DNA from: Albidovulum aestuarii
GTDB taxonomy: Bacteria > Pseudomonadota > Alphaproteobacteria > Rhodobacterales > Rhodobacteraceae
Reading direction: 5' to 3'
Assembly (NCBI RefSeq): GCF_029961185.1
Contig: NZ_JASBQQ010000008.1
Location: 62,001 to 126,000 of the forward strand
Length of the DNA: 64,000 nt
Shown: positions 55,026 to 61,991 of the stretch, piece after piece
Position numbering within the stretch: the first letter of the stretch is position 1
How the letters are laid out: each line of letters begins with the position of its first letter
Notes under the pieces: generated by a model
Database searches by the model: none
Told to the model about the DNA's origin: nothing
The model's input: only the letters and a program-made list of their open reading frames with translations
Translations under genes and position numbers: made by a program

Positions 55026-55876
55026 GTCCCTGTTGCACAGCGGGAACACAGCTGGCTTTGTGGTTAACGCTTGTGCCGATTGGATGATGCCTCTGTTTTG
55101 GGCCGATTAAGCAGCCAACACCGCGAATTGGGTAAATGGGCACAGTCCTGGCGTCAGCTGACCCTTGCGGATCATATTCGTCACCTCGATGCCCTCGAGT
55201 TTGGCCGAGGCTGTTGTGAAGGACTTGAAACTAAGCATCGGCAGGATCCGCTTTTTGATCGAGCGGTGAACTTGCTCGACCATATTGTTGAAATATTTGA
55301 TCCTCACCGTCTCAATCGGGATCCTGCAACCGAAGGACTTCAGCATGCGGTTGATGGCGTTGATCCCTGCAGTGTTGGCCGCGCTTAGGTCGATCACGAT
55401 TTTCGCGGCAGGCCGTTTACCTCAAAGGCTCTGGCGAAGAATCCAGTGGCCGCAGTCTTGATGCGACGCTTCGAAAGCATGAAATCAAGGGTCTTCCCGA
55501 GCTTGTCGACCGCCCGATAAAGGTAGACCCATTCGCCAGTCACGTTGATGTAGGTCGCATCCATGCGCCAGGACCGGTCGGCGGCCACTTTCCTGCGGCG
55601 CGCGTTGGCAGCAATCAGCGGAGAATAACCCTTTTTACCCAACGGTTGAGCGTCGCATGATCAACCCTAACGCCGCGCTCGGCCACGATCGCTTCCAGAT
55701 CACGGCACGAAACTGTGTAGCGCACGTCGAAGAAGACTGCGAACAGGATCACGTCCTTCGGGAACTGAGCGCCTTTGAACGATACCATGTTACGCCCTCC
55801 AGACGGTGCCCCAACCCACCGGGATCGTCGATCTTCCAGCACAAATCCATCAAGAACCAAGGCTTGCGACAGAACC
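55026..55876 (-). mobile_element. Degenerate IS6-family insertion sequence
   Basis: An element of about 850 bases. Its right end GGTTCTGTCGCA (reading inward, 55865-55876) is typical of IS6 terminal repeats; the left end is suggested by GTCCCTGTTGCAC at 55026-55038, with several mismatches. The interior encodes a broken IS6-type DDE transposase on the minus strand. No matching 8-base target duplication was seen. Edges are tentative to about 30 bases. Confidence 0.55.
55107..55788 (-). pseudogene. Frameshifted IS6-family transposase
   Basis: Three reading-frame pieces together give an almost complete transposase. Piece 1 (ATG 55788: MVSFKGAQFPKDVILFAVFF, ...HATLNRWVK) shifts at a T-run near 55632-55636. 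Piece 2 (YSPLIAANARRRK, RSWRMDATYINVTGEWVYLY with the first catalytic Asp) shifts at a short T-run near 55400-55403. Piece 3 (IDLSAANTAGINAIN, then NNMVEQVHRSIKKR with the catalytic Glu) runs to the end. The second break looks like a one-base deletion in GLPRK-IVID. The element should be immobile on its own. Confidence 0.85.
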
Positions 55877-56100
55877 CACCGTATCGCTGCTGACTCGGCC
55901 AAAGAACACGTCGTCAAGGAACCGCCGCGTTGCGATCGATGCAATCCTTTGCCCAGCGCAGGTATCGGTTGCAGCACTAGGTCGCGGCCGCCTAACCTGA
56001 AACAGAACCAACGTGACGAAAGGACCAGCGCGTTCTGGGGAACTCCGACGACGGACAGTGGCCTCGTTTCTCGATCGGTTCTCCCTCGCGATCATCACTC

Positions 56101-57170: not shown

Positions 57171-57184
57171 TTGATTGGCGTCAA
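57171..57184. promoter_or_regulatory. TTGAT-N4-GTCAA FNR/FixK-like dyad before the exchanger gene
   Basis: TTGATTGGCGTCAA differs from the FNR consensus TTGAT-N4-ATCAA by one base. Its centre is about 39 bases from the exchanger ATG, too near the start for a classical activator unless the leader is very short. Confidence 0.45.
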
Positions 57185-57627
57185 TCCCATTGATCTTCTG
57201 CGTGCTGGCAGATGGGGAGTAGGCGCTCCAAAGTCCCTCCCTTTTGCAATAAAGACGACGATGGGCCGGAAAGCCTAGCTCGTATGCCTCACGACAGTTG
57301 AAAGCGCCGACGATCTATTGAAGCAGGGCGCATCCGAGGCGCGCAGAAAAAATGCCCACGTGATCGGGATGCACACAGCGGAAGCGCTGTTGGTCTATCC
57401 GGGCATTGCACGCCCCTAATGCCGCATTCGCTGCGTTCAAAGAGGGCCAAAAAGAAAGAGGCCGCGAAGTATAGGATTGTACGATTCAGCGAAACATCGT
57501 GGATGATCTCTGTTGCGGAGAGGGAGGACGCATTCCTATGAAAAACCCGCATGGAAGTGATCCGGATCAGCCTGTGCCCACTGCATTGGATTAGACTTAC
57601 GGCTATCCACGAGCTGGAGGCAGTCGG
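57185..57627 (+). promoter_or_regulatory. Upstream region of the site-2 protease gene (no gene seen)
   Basis: Over 440 bases without a convincing coding frame; the minus-strand open frame at 57289-57552 has a composition unlike real genes here. It holds the FNR-type dyad at 57557-57570 near the downstream end and a GGAGG (57614-57618) as ribosome binding site of the next gene. Some stretches (for example 57430-57480) look like decayed sequence, possibly from the IS neighbourhood. Confidence 0.4.
57557..57570. promoter_or_regulatory. TGATCCGGATCA dyad, FNR/FixK-type site before the site-2 protease gene
   Basis: TGATC-CG-GATCA is a perfect palindrome (57558-57569) with the TGAT/ATCA half-sites of FNR/FixK proteins. 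Its centre lies about 64 bases before the ATG at 57628, as expected for a class II activation site with a leader of about 22 bases. Confidence 0.6.
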
Positions 57628-58809
57628 ATGTTTTCGCGTACGGTTCGGTTGATCGAGATTTTCGGCTTTCAGGTCAAGATCGACGCCAGCTGGCTATTTA
57701 TCGCCTTTCTGGTCGTCTGGTCACTGATGTCCGGCTACTTTCCGGCGCAGGTGCCCGGGCTGAGGCCGGGTGACTACCTCGTCCTTGCCATCATCGCGAT
57801 GGTCGCGCTCTTTGCCGGTCTGATCCTGCATGAACTGGCGCATTCGCTGGTGGCGCGCCGGTTCGGGCTGGGCATTGGCGGCATCACGCTGTTCATCTTC
57901 GGTGGCGTGGCCGAGCTGGACGAGGAACCGGTCGATCCGCGCTCAGAATTCTGGATCGCGATTGCCGGGCCGGCGATGTCCTTCGCGCTTGCTGGTATCG
58001 CCTATCTCTTACTCAAACTGTCGCAAGCTGCCGGCATCTCCGAACCCTTGCAGGCGGTGCTGGAATACCTTGCATTCATCAACCTCGTCCTGGCGCTCTT
58101 TAACCTGCTTCCGGCCTTCCCGCTGGATGGCGGGCGGGTGCTGCGGGCGGCGCTCTGGCACTGGTCGGGCGACCTCGTTCGCGCCACGCGCAGCGCGACG
58201 GGCGCTTCAGCGATCCTGGCCTATGCGTTGATCGCCGTTGGTTTCGTCTCGCTCTTTTCGGGGGCGATCATCGGCGGTTTCTGGCAGGCGCTGATCGGGC
58301 TTTTCCTGCTGTCAGCCGCGCGCGGGACCTATCAGCAACTGATGATCAAGACAGCGCTCAGGGACAAGACCGTCGCATCGATGATGAGCCGGAACATCCA
58401 TACCGCATCGCCTGAGGACACGCTCACCGATGTGGTCGACCGCATCATGCTACGCCATTCGGTGAGTTTCGTGCCAGTGACCGAGGGCGAGCATCTTTTG
58501 GGATTTGTCGATACTGCTTTGTTGCAAAAGATCGACCGGGACAACTGGGGCGACACCCATATCGCCGATATCTACGTGGGCAGCGATCCCACGAATACGA
58601 TCACGCCTGACGTTGCGACAGATGCGCTGATGGCACGCATGGCGTCGGGTGGGCGGCGCAAATTTCTGGTTGCCGAGGGCGGGCGGTTTATGGGAGTCAT
58701 CACGCTTGCCGACCTCATGGCCTATCTCGCAGTGTTGCAGGATCTTGGTCAGGTCCGCTCGACAGGAACTGCCGGGCAACTGTCCCGGCGGGCCGGTTCT
58801 CTGGATTGA
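57628..58809 (+). CDS. Site-2 protease family (M50) membrane metalloprotease with CBS pair
   Basis: A 393-residue intramembrane protease. His68-Glu69 and His72 in HELAHSLVARRFG form the zinc site, with Asp167 in LPAFPLDGGRVLRA as third ligand. A CBS pair follows (about 245-375; MMSRNIHTASPEDTLTDVVD, GRFMGVITLADLMAYLAV). Such fusions are thought to sense adenylates or redox state and release membrane-held regulators. First gene of a stress or low-oxygen cluster; it lies directly before the FixL-like kinase. Confidence 0.93.
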   Translation: MFSRTVRLIEIFGFQVKIDASWLFIAFLVVWSLMSGYFPAQVPGLRPGDYLVLAIIAMVALFAGLILHELAHSLVARRFGLGIGGITLFIFGGVAELDEEPVDPRSEFWIAIAGPAMSFALAGIAYLLLKLSQAAGISEPLQAVLEYLAFINLVLALFNLLPAFPLDGGRVLRAALWHWSGDLVRATRSATGASAILAYALIAVGFVSLFSGAIIGGFWQALIGLFLLSAARGTYQQLMIKTALRDKTVASMMSRNIHTASPEDTLTDVVDRIMLRHSVSFVPVTEGEHLLGFVDTALLQKIDRDNWGDTHIADIYVGSDPTNTITPDVATDALMARMASGGRRKFLVAEGGRFMGVITLADLMAYLAVLQDLGQVRSTGTAGQLSRRAGSLD

Positions 58810-58865: not shown

Positions 58866-60401
58866 ATGACGCGTGAAACCGACGATTCCGTCCTGCTCGA
58901 AACACTTCTTAACGCGGCGGTCGATGCGATCATCGTGGCCGATGCTGATGGACGGATGATCCGGGTCAATCCGGCAGCCGCGACCATGTTCGGCTATGGC
59001 CCGGATGACATGACGGGCCGGTCAATAGACATGCTGGTGCCTGACACTGAGCGTGTCGATCACGGTCAAAAGATCGCCGACTATCTGGCCACCGGGCAGG
59101 CCCGCATCATCGGTATCGGCCGGGATGTTGAGGCGGTCCGAAAGGACGGCAGCATCTTTCCGGCCCATTTGACGGTTGGCCGCGGTACTATCGGCGATCA
59201 GCCGGTCTTCGTTGGTTCCCTACACGACCTGACTGCCCGACAGCAGGCGCAGCAGGCCGTCGAGGCCGCGCAGCGCATGGAGGCGCTCGCCCGGCTGACG
59301 GGCGGTATTGCACATGATTTCAACAATCTGCTCACGATCATCATCGGCAATCTCGAACTGCTCGAGGCGAAGCTTGCGGATGACAGCCAAAAGTCACTGC
59401 TGAACGAAGCACTGTCCGCGGCCGAAATTGGCACAAAGGTCATCGAAAAGTTGCTGGTTCATGGCCGTCGGGGCCCACTTCAACCCATACGGCTTGATGT
59501 GAATGCCGTCATCGGCGAAGTGACTGGGCTCCTGTCCCGCACCCTCTCGCCTCGCATCAAGCTCAGCACGGCGCTTGGGGCTGGTATCTGGCCAATTGAT
59601 GCCGATCCGGCACAGTTGCAGAACGCACTGATAAACCTTGTTGTCAATGCGCGGGATGCGATGCCTGACGGTGGTGAGATCGTCATCAGTTCATCGAATG
59701 TTGAAACGGATGAATTCATCGCAGCAGAAACCGGCGCGACACCGGGCCGCTACGCGCGCGTTTCGATCACGGACAACGGTCAGGGCATGACGTCAGACGT
59801 AAAACAGCGAGCTTTCGAGCCGTTCTTCACGACAAAGGCCGCCGGAAAAGGAACCGGTCTTGGACTTGCAACGGTCTACGGCTTTGTCCGCCAGTCGGGA
59901 GGGCATGTGACACTCTATAGCGAGGTTGGACTGGGTACGACCATCAGCCTGCACTTTCCGGCGGCCACTGGCAGCCCGGTTGCACCGGATGATGACCGTC
60001 CCGAAACCGTCGGGGCGCAGGATACCGGCCAAACCATTCTGGTCGTCGAGGATGACGAGGCCATTCTGCGCCTTTCGGTTAGCCGGATCGAGGCGCTCGG
60101 GTATCGCGCACTGCCTGCTGCGGACTCAAACGAAGCCATGGACATTCTCGCATCGAACCCCGAGATCGACGCGCTCTTTACCGATATCGTGATGCCGGGC
60201 GGAATGAACGGGCTTGACCTTGCCCGCAAAGTCCGGGCGGACCGGCCAGGCATCGCAATCCTGCTGACCTCAGGCTTTTCCGGCGACCTGATCCATCCTG
60301 GCAATGGCTTTTCGACGAATTTTCAGTTGCTGTCCAAACCCTACCGTCAGGAAGAGCTCGCGACCCGTCTGCGCATCCTTTTGTCAGGCCGCGTTTCATA
60401 G
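58866..60401 (+). CDS. FixL-like heme-PAS hybrid histidine kinase with receiver domain
   Basis: A 511-residue soluble kinase with an N-terminal PAS domain (about 10-125), a HisKA domain with His150 in GGIAHDFNN, an HATPase domain (NALINLVVNARDAMPDGG, TDNGQGM, GTGLGLATVYGF) and a C-terminal receiver with Asp440 in ALFTDIVMPGG. The PAS domain reads VDHGQKIADYLATG then IIGIGR then RKDGSIFPAHLTVG. In FixL the proximal heme His and distal Arg are 20 residues apart; here His66 and Arg86 have exactly that spacing. This indicates an oxygen-sensing heme PAS. A TTG at 58806, overlapping the protease stop, is an alternative start. Confidence 0.85.
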   Translation: MTRETDDSVLLETLLNAAVDAIIVADADGRMIRVNPAAATMFGYGPDDMTGRSIDMLVPDTERVDHGQKIADYLATGQARIIGIGRDVEAVRKDGSIFPAHLTVGRGTIGDQPVFVGSLHDLTARQQAQQAVEAAQRMEALARLTGGIAHDFNNLLTIIIGNLELLEAKLADDSQKSLLNEALSAAEIGTKVIEKLLVHGRRGPLQPIRLDVNAVIGEVTGLLSRTLSPRIKLSTALGAGIWPIDADPAQLQNALINLVVNARDAMPDGGEIVISSSNVETDEFIAAETGATPGRYARVSITDNGQGMTSDVKQRAFEPFFTTKAAGKGTGLGLATVYGFVRQSGGHVTLYSEVGLGTTISLHFPAATGSPVAPDDDRPETVGAQDTGQTILVVEDDEAILRLSVSRIEALGYRALPAADSNEAMDILASNPEIDALFTDIVMPGGMNGLDLARKVRADRPGIAILLTSGFSGDLIHPGNGFSTNFQLLSKPYRQEELATRLRILLSGRVS

Positions 60402-61133
60402 TCGTCCCGATACGGTCACCTCGGCGGCGAATGTATAGCCAACCCCGCGCACCGTCTTGATCAGTTTCGGCGTCCCCGGCTCGAGCTCGATCTTCTTGCG
60501 CAGGCGGGCTACCTGATTGTCGATGGTGCGGTCCAAGGGCGACCAGTCGGCGCCGTTAACAAGATCCATGATCTGTTCGCGCGAGAGGACTCGCCGGGGT
60601 CTTTCGAGAAAGACCTTGAGCAGGCGGAAATCGCCGCCCGTCAGTTCGATCGGAGCGCCCTTTGGGTCGAACAGCTCCAGCCGGTCCGGGACGGCTCGGA
60701 ACCCGGCGAAGGCATATTCGGGGCAGGCCTCATGACTGCTCTTGCCTGCCATATGCGGCGCATCACCACCGCTCCGCCTCAGCACACTGTGGACGCGGGC
60801 CAGAACCTCGCGCACATGGAACGGCTTGGTGATATAGTCGTCCGCTCCGATCTCCAGCCCGACGATCCGGTCAATTACGTCGCCGCGTCCGGTCACCATG
60901 ACGATCGGCACGTCCGAGTGTTTTCGGACTGCCTGCGCCACATCAAGGCCGCTCTGACCCTCAAGATTGATGTCGAGTGTCATGAGGTCGACGCCGCCGC
61001 CCTGGATAGCCTCCATGGCATCCTTGCCACCAGTGGCTTCGGTCACGTCATATCCGTCGCTTTCCAGGCACCGCCGCAGCAGAGTCCGTACAGCATCATC
61101 ATCATCAACGACGAGAATTCGACGGCTGACCAC
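60396..61133 (-). CDS. OmpR-family response regulator
   Basis: A 245-residue regulator with a receiver domain (VVDDDDAVRTLLR, phospho-acceptor Asp54 in MTLDINLEG, Lys103 in YITKPF) and a winged-helix DNA-binding domain (RPRRVLSREQIMDLVNG, LIKTVRGVGYTF). It converges with the kinase gene, overlapping it by six bases. The start is GTG 61133. It is a plausible phospho-partner of the kinase. The GATACA direct repeat about 100 bases upstream may be its target. FixJ, the classical FixL partner, belongs to another family. Confidence 0.9.
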   Translation of the reverse strand: MVSRRILVVDDDDAVRTLLRRCLESDGYDVTEATGGKDAMEAIQGGGVDLMTLDINLEGQSGLDVAQAVRKHSDVPIVMVTGRGDVIDRIVGLEIGADDYITKPFHVREVLARVHSVLRRSGGDAPHMAGKSSHEACPEYAFAGFRAVPDRLELFDPKGAPIELTGGDFRLLKVFLERPRRVLSREQIMDLVNGADWSPLDRTIDNQVARLRKKIELEPGTPKLIKTVRGVGYTFAAEVTVSGRL

Positions 61134-61231: not shown

Positions 61232-61247
61232 GATACATTTTGATACA
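61232..61247. promoter_or_regulatory. GATACA direct repeat with 10-base spacing, candidate OmpR-family site
   Basis: GATACA occurs at 61232-61237 and 61242-61247, one helical turn apart, between the response regulator gene and the FixK-like gene. Tandem repeats of this spacing are typical of OmpR/PhoB regulators. The stretch TTTTG-ATA-CAAAA (61238-61250) also forms a small dyad over the same bases. It lies about 67 bases before the FixK-like start. Confidence 0.5.
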
Positions 61248-61313: not shown

Positions 61314-61991
61314 ATGACAGCACCAGCACGCAACATTCATTCCGTTCAGCAAACCCTGCGCCACATTCCCGCGGTTCTAAAACCAGAGGCAGAAAGATTG
61401 CCGCGGCGGCTGGGCGAAGGCCAGCATCTTTTCTTTGAATCGGACCCCGCTCGGTTTGTTTACGAAGTCGTCTCCGGTGTCGTCCGCCTGACCCGCCTGC
61501 ACAAGGACGGTCGGCGGCAGGTGATTGCCTTTGGATTTCCCGGCGATCTGGTCGGCCTGCCAAGCAATGGCCGGCATTCGACGGAATGCGACGCCGTGAC
61601 CGCGGCCGAGGTCGTTGCGCATCGCTGTGACCCCCTCGGGCGGCCCGACCGCGACCCTTCGCTTCATTCTGTGGTCATGGCGGCCGCACTGGACGAGATC
61701 AGCATGCTTCAGGATCATTTCCTGATGCTCGGCCGGCGGCTCGCCAGTGAGAAAGTCGCAGCGTTCCTCTGTCTGCTGCTCGACCGGATCGGTGAGGCTG
61801 TTGGTACTTATCGGATGATCCGCCTGCCGATGAACCGTTCCGACATCGCTGATTACCTCGGCCTGACACCAGAAACGATCAGCCGTTCAATCACCCAGTT
61901 TCGCGAAGCGAAGATCGTCGCACTGGAAGATGCCCATACGATGATAGTCCTTGATGTGTCGCGACTGCGGGACATGGCGGAAGGATCCTGA
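61314..61991 (+). CDS. FixK/Fnr-type transcription regulator without Fe-S cysteines
   Basis: A 225-residue Crp/Fnr-family regulator with an effector beta-roll (LFFESDPARFVYEVVSGVVR, KDGRRQVIAFGFPGDLVGLP) and a helix-turn-helix (RSDIADYLGLTPETISRSIT). The recognition helix contains Glu187-x-x-Ser190-Arg191, the E-x-x-S-R motif that reads TGAT half-sites in FNR and FixK. The cysteines (92, 105, 153) do not form FNR's N-terminal cluster, so it is not itself an oxygen sensor, like FixK. The start ATG 61314 follows a G-rich stretch; ATG 61299 is possible. Confidence 0.88.
   Translation: MTAPARNIHSVQQTLRHIPAVLKPEAERLPRRLGEGQHLFFESDPARFVYEVVSGVVRLTRLHKDGRRQVIAFGFPGDLVGLPSNGRHSTECDAVTAAEVVAHRCDPLGRPDRDPSLHSVVMAAALDEISMLQDHFLMLGRRLASEKVAAFLCLLLDRIGEAVGTYRMIRLPMNRSDIADYLGLTPETISRSITQFREAKIVALEDAHTMIVLDVSRLRDMAEGS

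Follow-up and report, generated by a model that had tools for sequence, protein, structure and literature searches.

A probable hFixL-FxkR-FixK low-oxygen cascade in Albidovulum aestuarii (Rhodobacterales)

In Albidovulum aestuarii, a hybrid histidine kinase with a FixL-like PAS domain lies beside an OmpR-type response regulator, and this locus raises the question of what the kinase senses and through which partners it acts. The locus was analysed within a 64,000-nucleotide stretch of contig NZ_JASBQQ010000008.1 (assembly GCF_029961185.1), referred to here as the window, and coordinates are given in it. The original prediction was that of an oxygen-sensing cascade with rewired partners. It did not include a FixK-type gene on the far side of the regulator, or the K-box-like repeat that precedes this gene. 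With kinase, regulator and FixK-type gene taken together as a triad, the locus very probably encodes an hFixL-FxkR-FixK cascade. According to the accessible parts of the published descriptions, a hybrid FixL acts through FxkR, a regulator that is not homologous to FixJ, and induces fixK at the K-box GTTACA-N4-GTTACA; the hFixL-FxkR pairing is known in Rhizobium leguminosarum/johnstonii, R. etli and Sinorhizobium meliloti (PMC7888657, PMC4999443, PMC7769827). Because the pairing of such a kinase with an OmpR-type regulator is already in print, the novelty claimed for the rewired partners does not hold, and a novel rewiring of FixL is rejected.

The kinase gene occupies 58866-60401 on the forward strand and encodes an hFixL-type protein of 511 residues, a designation based on the reading frame, the Pfam domains and the best match to a published hybrid FixL. 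Translation may also begin further upstream, at the in-frame TTG at 58806. Pfam places the domains in the order PAS, HisKA, HATPase_c and Response_reg. The kinase core is of the HDFNN type, and the HisKA match contains the predicted phospho-accepting His150 (motif AHDFNN, codon 59313-59315, forward strand). The core is fused to a receiver, as had been anticipated, with a Response_reg match at residues 391-502 that includes the predicted phospho-accepting Asp440 (codon 60183-60185, forward strand). No transmembrane segment is evident from the hydropathy of the window kinase, which reaches a maximum of 1.64 versus 2.45 in the S. meliloti FixL frame. The NCBIfam FixL model scores 146.3 bits, under its equivalog cut-off of 850. 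Upstream, at 57628-58809 on the same strand, lies a gene for an M50 metalloprotease with a CBS domain (Pfam Peptidase_M50 and CBS). It is separated from the kinase start by 56 bp, and the two genes probably form one operon; the M50/CBS gene group was found in 11 of the 15 compared loci. Further to the left, several frames on the reverse strand at 55107-55977 look by eye like broken pieces of an IS-type transposase, to the left of a Na/Ca exchanger gene.

The nature of the signal depends on the PAS domain, which covers residues 11-133 (58896-59264, forward strand) and was assigned to the FixL type by a PDB sequence search and a structural model. The seven best PDB sequences are all FixL (1dp6, E 1.7e-22; 1d06, E 2.5e-22), followed by DosP at E 1.4e-11, and 123 residues align with 1dp6 without a single gap. 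In sequence as well as in structural alignment, His66 (codon 59061-59063, forward strand) and Arg86 (59121-59123, forward strand) stand at the places of His200 and Arg220 of Bradyrhizobium FixL (BjFixL). These two residues are taken here to be the proximal haem ligand and the distal arginine, respectively; in PDB entry 1y28, BjFixL carries the R220A mutation. The histidine and arginine 20 residues apart, from which oxygen sensing had been proposed, are therefore borne out by the ungapped alignment to FixL haem domains, and the IIGIGR and RKDGSxFP signatures are both in the frame, the second as RKDGSIFP.

The AlphaFold2 model of the domain (pLDDT 89.4) retrieves FixL first in both Foldseek and VIA-align. 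The best VIA-align match has a Z-score of 19.6 and an rmsd of 1.4 Å over 135 residues; across the BjFixL entries, superposed over 104-136 residues, the rmsd is 1.3-1.6 Å, compared with 2.1 Å for S. meliloti 1d06. Model residues 20-136 correspond to residues 154-270 of BjFixL in 2cmn (117 of 117) with a constant offset of 134, so that His66 is paired with His200 and Arg86 with Arg220. A position of His66 outside the haem pocket, which would have spoken against haem binding, is thus not what the predicted structure gives. Residues I81, L102 and V104 are identical to S. meliloti FixL at the matching columns. Both His66 and Arg86 occur in all 19 kinases of loci with the same gene set, window included, although these are related proteins and not independent cases. 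Among the other kinases in the matches listed (two scans), 5 of 98 have both residues; since 71 of the 98 have no PAS match, the fairer comparison is 5 of 27. Rows L030 and L016 are not part of the final PAS alignment. Taken at the level of sequence and model, these results support a FixL-type PAS domain with haem residues. No haem spectra of an hFixL were found in the accessible parts of the open-licence literature searched.

It is also conceivable that the triad and its K-box-like site work as described while the PAS domain senses NO, CO, the redox state or no ligand at all. This is considered unlikely. FAD or FMN is bound by other PAS domains of related fold, as illustrated by NifL and LOV chains in the structural list, and Arg206 of BjFixL is replaced by Asp at residue 72, a difference that the original prediction did not include. 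This column also varies among the triad kinases, the rhizobial ones included; 2cmn is by its title a proximal-arginine mutant, at the same column. Against a different ligand stand the FixL histidine, arginine and distal pocket residues of the window PAS domain, as well as the structural list itself, which is headed by FixL entries at Z 17.9-19.6, while all others reach at most 17.4, and the one with that value is also a haem PAS. The relatives offer a further point in favour of other inputs. Position 66 is covered in 18 family relatives, a count that keeps L181, and is His in 16 of them, each with the Arg. The two exceptions are L176 (genome G118; also L190), with Ser and no Arg, and L186 (genome G217; also L191), with Thr and the following part of the PAS domain missing. 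Both retain the triad and a K-box-like site. Because the haem residues are gone in 2 of 18 relatives while the triad stays, a different signal may feed the circuit in some species.

The first putative partner of the kinase is the regulator at 60396-61133 on the reverse strand, whose gene faces that of the kinase in convergent orientation and shares 6 bp with its 3' end. It is an FxkR-type response regulator of 245 residues with Asp54 as the putative phosphorylation site, assigned from Pfam (Response_reg and Trans_reg_C), the match to a published FxkR and trees; the OmpR-type neighbour of the original prediction is confirmed in this way. It is probably the partner of the hybrid kinase. Beyond it, at 61314-61991 on the forward strand, lies the gene for a FixK-type Crp/Fnr regulator of 225 residues (Pfam cNMP_binding and HTH_Crp_2), whose best NCBIfam model is FixK at 139.8 bits, under the cut-off of 300. 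An N-terminal cysteine cluster is absent from this protein, which has cysteines only at positions 92, 105 and 153. The FixK-type gene is probably the target of the kinase and the OmpR-type regulator.

Searches with known proteins bear on the identity of these genes. Queries were taken from the pRL9 stretch of R. johnstonii 3841 with hfixL9, fixK9a, fixK9b and fxkR9, the names being assigned from published descriptions. In searches made in one direction, hFixL9 finds the window kinase first in the genome (424.6 bits, next 264.2), and FxkR9 finds the window regulator first (212.7 bits, next 156.8). S. meliloti FixL also has the window kinase as its best match in the genome. FixJ as a query scores highest against a protein that consists of a receiver only (91.1 bits); three long matches of this query show 28-31% identity at no more than 48.7 bits. 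A canonical FixLJ system is rejected, because no FixJ orthologue stands out in the genome searched with this query and the adjacent regulator is of the OmpR type.

Between the OmpR-type and FixK-type genes, at 61232-61247 on the forward strand, lies the direct repeat GATACA-N4-GATACA (GATACATTTTGATACA). Compared with the published GTTACA-N4-GTTACA, it has equal spacing and one mismatch per half, two in total. Within the window alone such a match is unremarkable: there are 2 matches at up to 2 mismatches versus 0.62 expected, and 12 of 100 window shuffles give as many. The weight of the repeat lies in its position and conservation. It is the sole GWTACA-N4-GWTACA in the 4.24 Mb genome (30 contigs), in which the reversed control has no match. 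Across the genus, the exact repeat occurs in 8 of 22 genomes, at the triad locus in 5 of them and in genomes without the kinase in the other 3; the reversed control has matches in 6 of 22, and 4 of the 9 triad genomes of the genus have a degenerate repeat only. All 19 regulator-FixK regions hold a site with up to 3 mismatches to GTTACA-N4-GTTACA, these regions having been picked by hand and counted without a chance control. A stricter count was made at 21 further family loci picked by the regulator alone, leaving out the window's own locus L167 as well as L181, which has the genome and position of L132, with expectations from first-order resampling. Within 400 bp, 12 loci have the exact GWTACA repeat versus 0.0 expected, 15 have it with up to one mismatch (expected 0.05), and 18 with up to two (expected 0.77); in 3 of the 21 a K-box-like site is missing. 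The repeat is proposed as a candidate K-box variant for the FxkR-type regulator.

The same arrangement recurs in relatives. Apart from the window's genome, 8 of 21 congeners have the kinase (E ≤ 1e-90), and the triad order holds in all 9 relatives fetched from the kinase matches, namely the 8 congeners and G033 of another genus. The regulator (E ≤ 1e-68) is found in 22 of 198 family genomes, the window's included. At 22 family loci besides the window's own, a kinase lies 3' of the regulator in 20, and a FixK-type gene lies 5' of it in 20. The loci without an adjacent kinase are L174, with none within 8 kb, and L177, with a kinase piece about 4.5 kb off; L179 and L188 have no FixK-type gene in the stretch examined. 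In Sulfitobacter sp. DSM 110093 an identical triad order is followed by stress-protein and cco assembly genes, and Tropicibacter oceani carries a regulator-FixK pair and a separate kinase on one plasmid. In Terrarubrum flagellatum (Hyphomicrobiales) the triad adjoins cco genes, and a metagenome-assembled Bosea genome has all three genes.

This distribution bears on the suspicion that a generic HDFNN hybrid kinase merely happens to neighbour an OmpR regulator to which it is unrelated, and owes its FixL-like PAS domain to shuffling. Such kinases are indeed abundant (at least 588 confirmed stretches; 80 loci among the matches listed), and the best NCBIfam model for the window kinase is a generic histidine-kinase subfamily, which scores under its cut-off. 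However, triad and repeat are conserved across genera, hFixL9 and FxkR9 each match these neighbours first, and the kinase and regulator trees are broadly alike. A chance neighbourhood is rejected because of the conservation of the triad across genera, and this account is very improbable indeed.

The genes that accompany the triad elsewhere show a pattern of their own. Universal stress proteins, Hsp20, CBS proteins and P-type ATPases recur at L119, L120, L121, L122, L141 and L143, and BON proteins, acetate kinase, phosphoketolase and PEP synthase are encoded at the same loci. At L133, such genes lie to the right of the FixK-type gene, Hsp20 being recognised by eye. This gene company presumably recalls the DosR hypoxia regulon of Mycobacterium tuberculosis. 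To the right of the window, at 12131-18622 of L133, frames judged by eye resemble a multihaem cytochrome and an Rnf/Nqr-type operon; these electron-transport frames begin about 5 kb past the FixK-type gene. In Aquabacterium and Rhodanobacter (L049 and L057), a related kinase lies beside OmpR and Crp-type genes and its PAS domain has the His and no Arg; these kinases may be remote relatives that bind a different ligand.

Whether the window triad shares its origin with the rhizobial one was approached with trees. Rhizobial kinases form a clade with Bosea (100/100), rhodobacterial kinases form another with Terrarubrum (99/99), and the branch uniting the two has a support of 46/58. For the regulators, a single group is recovered in 41% of bootstrap trees. 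In a quick tree, the window regulator joined the rhizobial FxkR clade with 87% SH-aLRT, with the plasmid row L144 inside; in the careful tree L144, a Rhizobium regulator, is labelled FxkR. Adding the S. meliloti FixL row to the kinase tree splits the triad rows, and the long FixL branch joins the rhizobial rows. The careful trees leave out this row, L003 and the long regulator rows L156 and L158-L161. The weak joining support means that the case for a common origin is carried less by the trees than by the gene set, the repeat and the best matches. If related kinase and OmpR families had instead given rise to the circuit independently in Rhodobacterales, with convergence on a K-box-like site, this would be compatible with this weakly supported sister relation to rhizobial hFixL/FxkR and with a window site that reads GATACA, not GTTACA. 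Such an independent origin is quite unlikely, given that three genes and an equally spaced repeat agree and that Terrarubrum, a member of the Hyphomicrobiales, groups with the rhodobacterial sequences in its regulator (92/74) as in its kinase.

In the accessible parts of a survey of 50 alphaproteobacterial genomes, Rhodobacterales appear with FnrN-type regulators only, and the origin of hFixL-FxkR-FixKf is placed in an ancestor of the Rhizobiaceae (PMC4999443). No report of the cascade in Rhodobacterales was found in the open-licence literature searched, in part among best-ranked matches only. Measured against that survey, the present distribution is an extension. By gene content the locus is a member of the published system, probably in an order where the earlier survey found none; the finding is a wider-than-reported occurrence of a low-oxygen switch known from root-nodule bacteria, not a new switch.

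Sites for the last component of the cascade were looked for as anaeroboxes. An anaerobox-like site (GTGATCCGGATCAG, 57557-57570) with 2 mismatches to TTGATN4ATCAA precedes the start codon of the M50/CBS gene by 71 bp and is weak in the window itself. At the same distance of -71 from the same gene, a better preserved site with 0-1 mismatches is present in the loci of five congeners, L124, L126, L128, L129 and L130, the start codon of L130 having been corrected by hand and L127 being left out of this comparison. In L132 the best anaerobox-like site is at -254. A second such site precedes the M50/CBS-kinase operon at 57171-57184. The genome has three sites with exact anaeroboxes, all on contigs other than the window's and beside genes that were read as open frames. 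In the 12 kb with ccoN, two FnrL-kind boxes lie upstream of ccoN, and no K-box was found upstream of it in the stretch searched. The recurring site at -71 suggests, as a sequence pattern, a feedback of FixK or FnrL on the sensor operon.

For the hFixL-FxkR-FixK cascade, the following course of events can be proposed. What the sequences themselves establish is the gene content and order, the pocket residues, the place of the repeat and the conservation of these features. In the PAS pocket, His66 would hold a haem, and O2 bound next to Arg86 would keep the kinase, which is predicted to be soluble, inactive. When O2 is low, it would autophosphorylate on His150, and the phosphoryl group would pass to Asp54 of the FxkR-type regulator, either directly or via Asp440 of the receiver; the fused receiver may alternatively act as a brake or provide a docking platform. 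Once phosphorylated, the regulator would bind the repeat at 61232-61247 and switch on the FixK-type gene. The targets of FixK would be anaeroboxes, and one of them may be the site ahead of the protease-kinase operon, which would close the loop.

In a wider and tentative reading, which is held as somewhat less than an even prospect, hFixL-FxkR-FixK would be a widespread alphaproteobacterial module for low-oxygen survival, often plasmid-borne, which rhizobia recruited for nodule control and whose input domain is replaceable, some triads being without haem residues. The company of the module comprises universal stress proteins, Hsp20, the M50/CBS protease, P-type ATPases, fermentative genes and cbb3 oxidase. 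The presence of the complete circuit, with its repeat conserved, in a number of genera beyond the Rhizobiaceae would revise the origin given in the accessible parts of the published survey (PMC4999443). It would also give non-symbiotic models for the role of the fused receiver and for the co-divergence of kinase, regulator and operator.

Of the known systems, FnrL shares with the FixK-type protein the Crp/Fnr family, control by low oxygen and the type of box. The genome has a true FnrL (453.6 bits; cut-off 300 for the NCBIfam Rhodobacter-type FnrL), which points to Rhodobacterales and adjoins a frame that reads by eye like hemN. The window FixK-type protein differs from it in having no N-terminal cysteine cluster, and the two are 32% identical.

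The FixL-FixJ systems of Bradyrhizobium and Sinorhizobium resemble the locus in the haem-type PAS domain with equal His/Arg spacing, and the window kinase has the residues of S. meliloti FixL at 81, 102 and 104. However, FixL is a membrane-bound kinase without a fused receiver, and FixJ is a LuxR-type regulator. The membrane location of FixL is also stated in the accessible part of the literature (PMC7888657).

The closest likeness is to the rhizobial cascade, in which a hybrid FixL and an OmpR-type FxkR likewise go with a FixK-type gene, and a K-box-type repeat lies in the stretch that separates the regulator gene from fixK. Relative to R. johnstonii, the kinase is 44% and the regulator 48-49% identical, and the haem residues are kept. 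The differences concern arrangement and detail. The window kinase is convergent with the regulator and preceded by the M50/CBS gene, whereas in the rhizobial cascade the kinase lies downstream of fixK. It has one PAS domain in 511 residues, in contrast to the two PAS matches in the 641 residues of R. johnstonii hFixL9, although a relative in S. meliloti LMB1 is also single-PAS. The operator reads GATACA-N4-GATACA in the window and GTTACA-N4-GTTACA in rhizobia.
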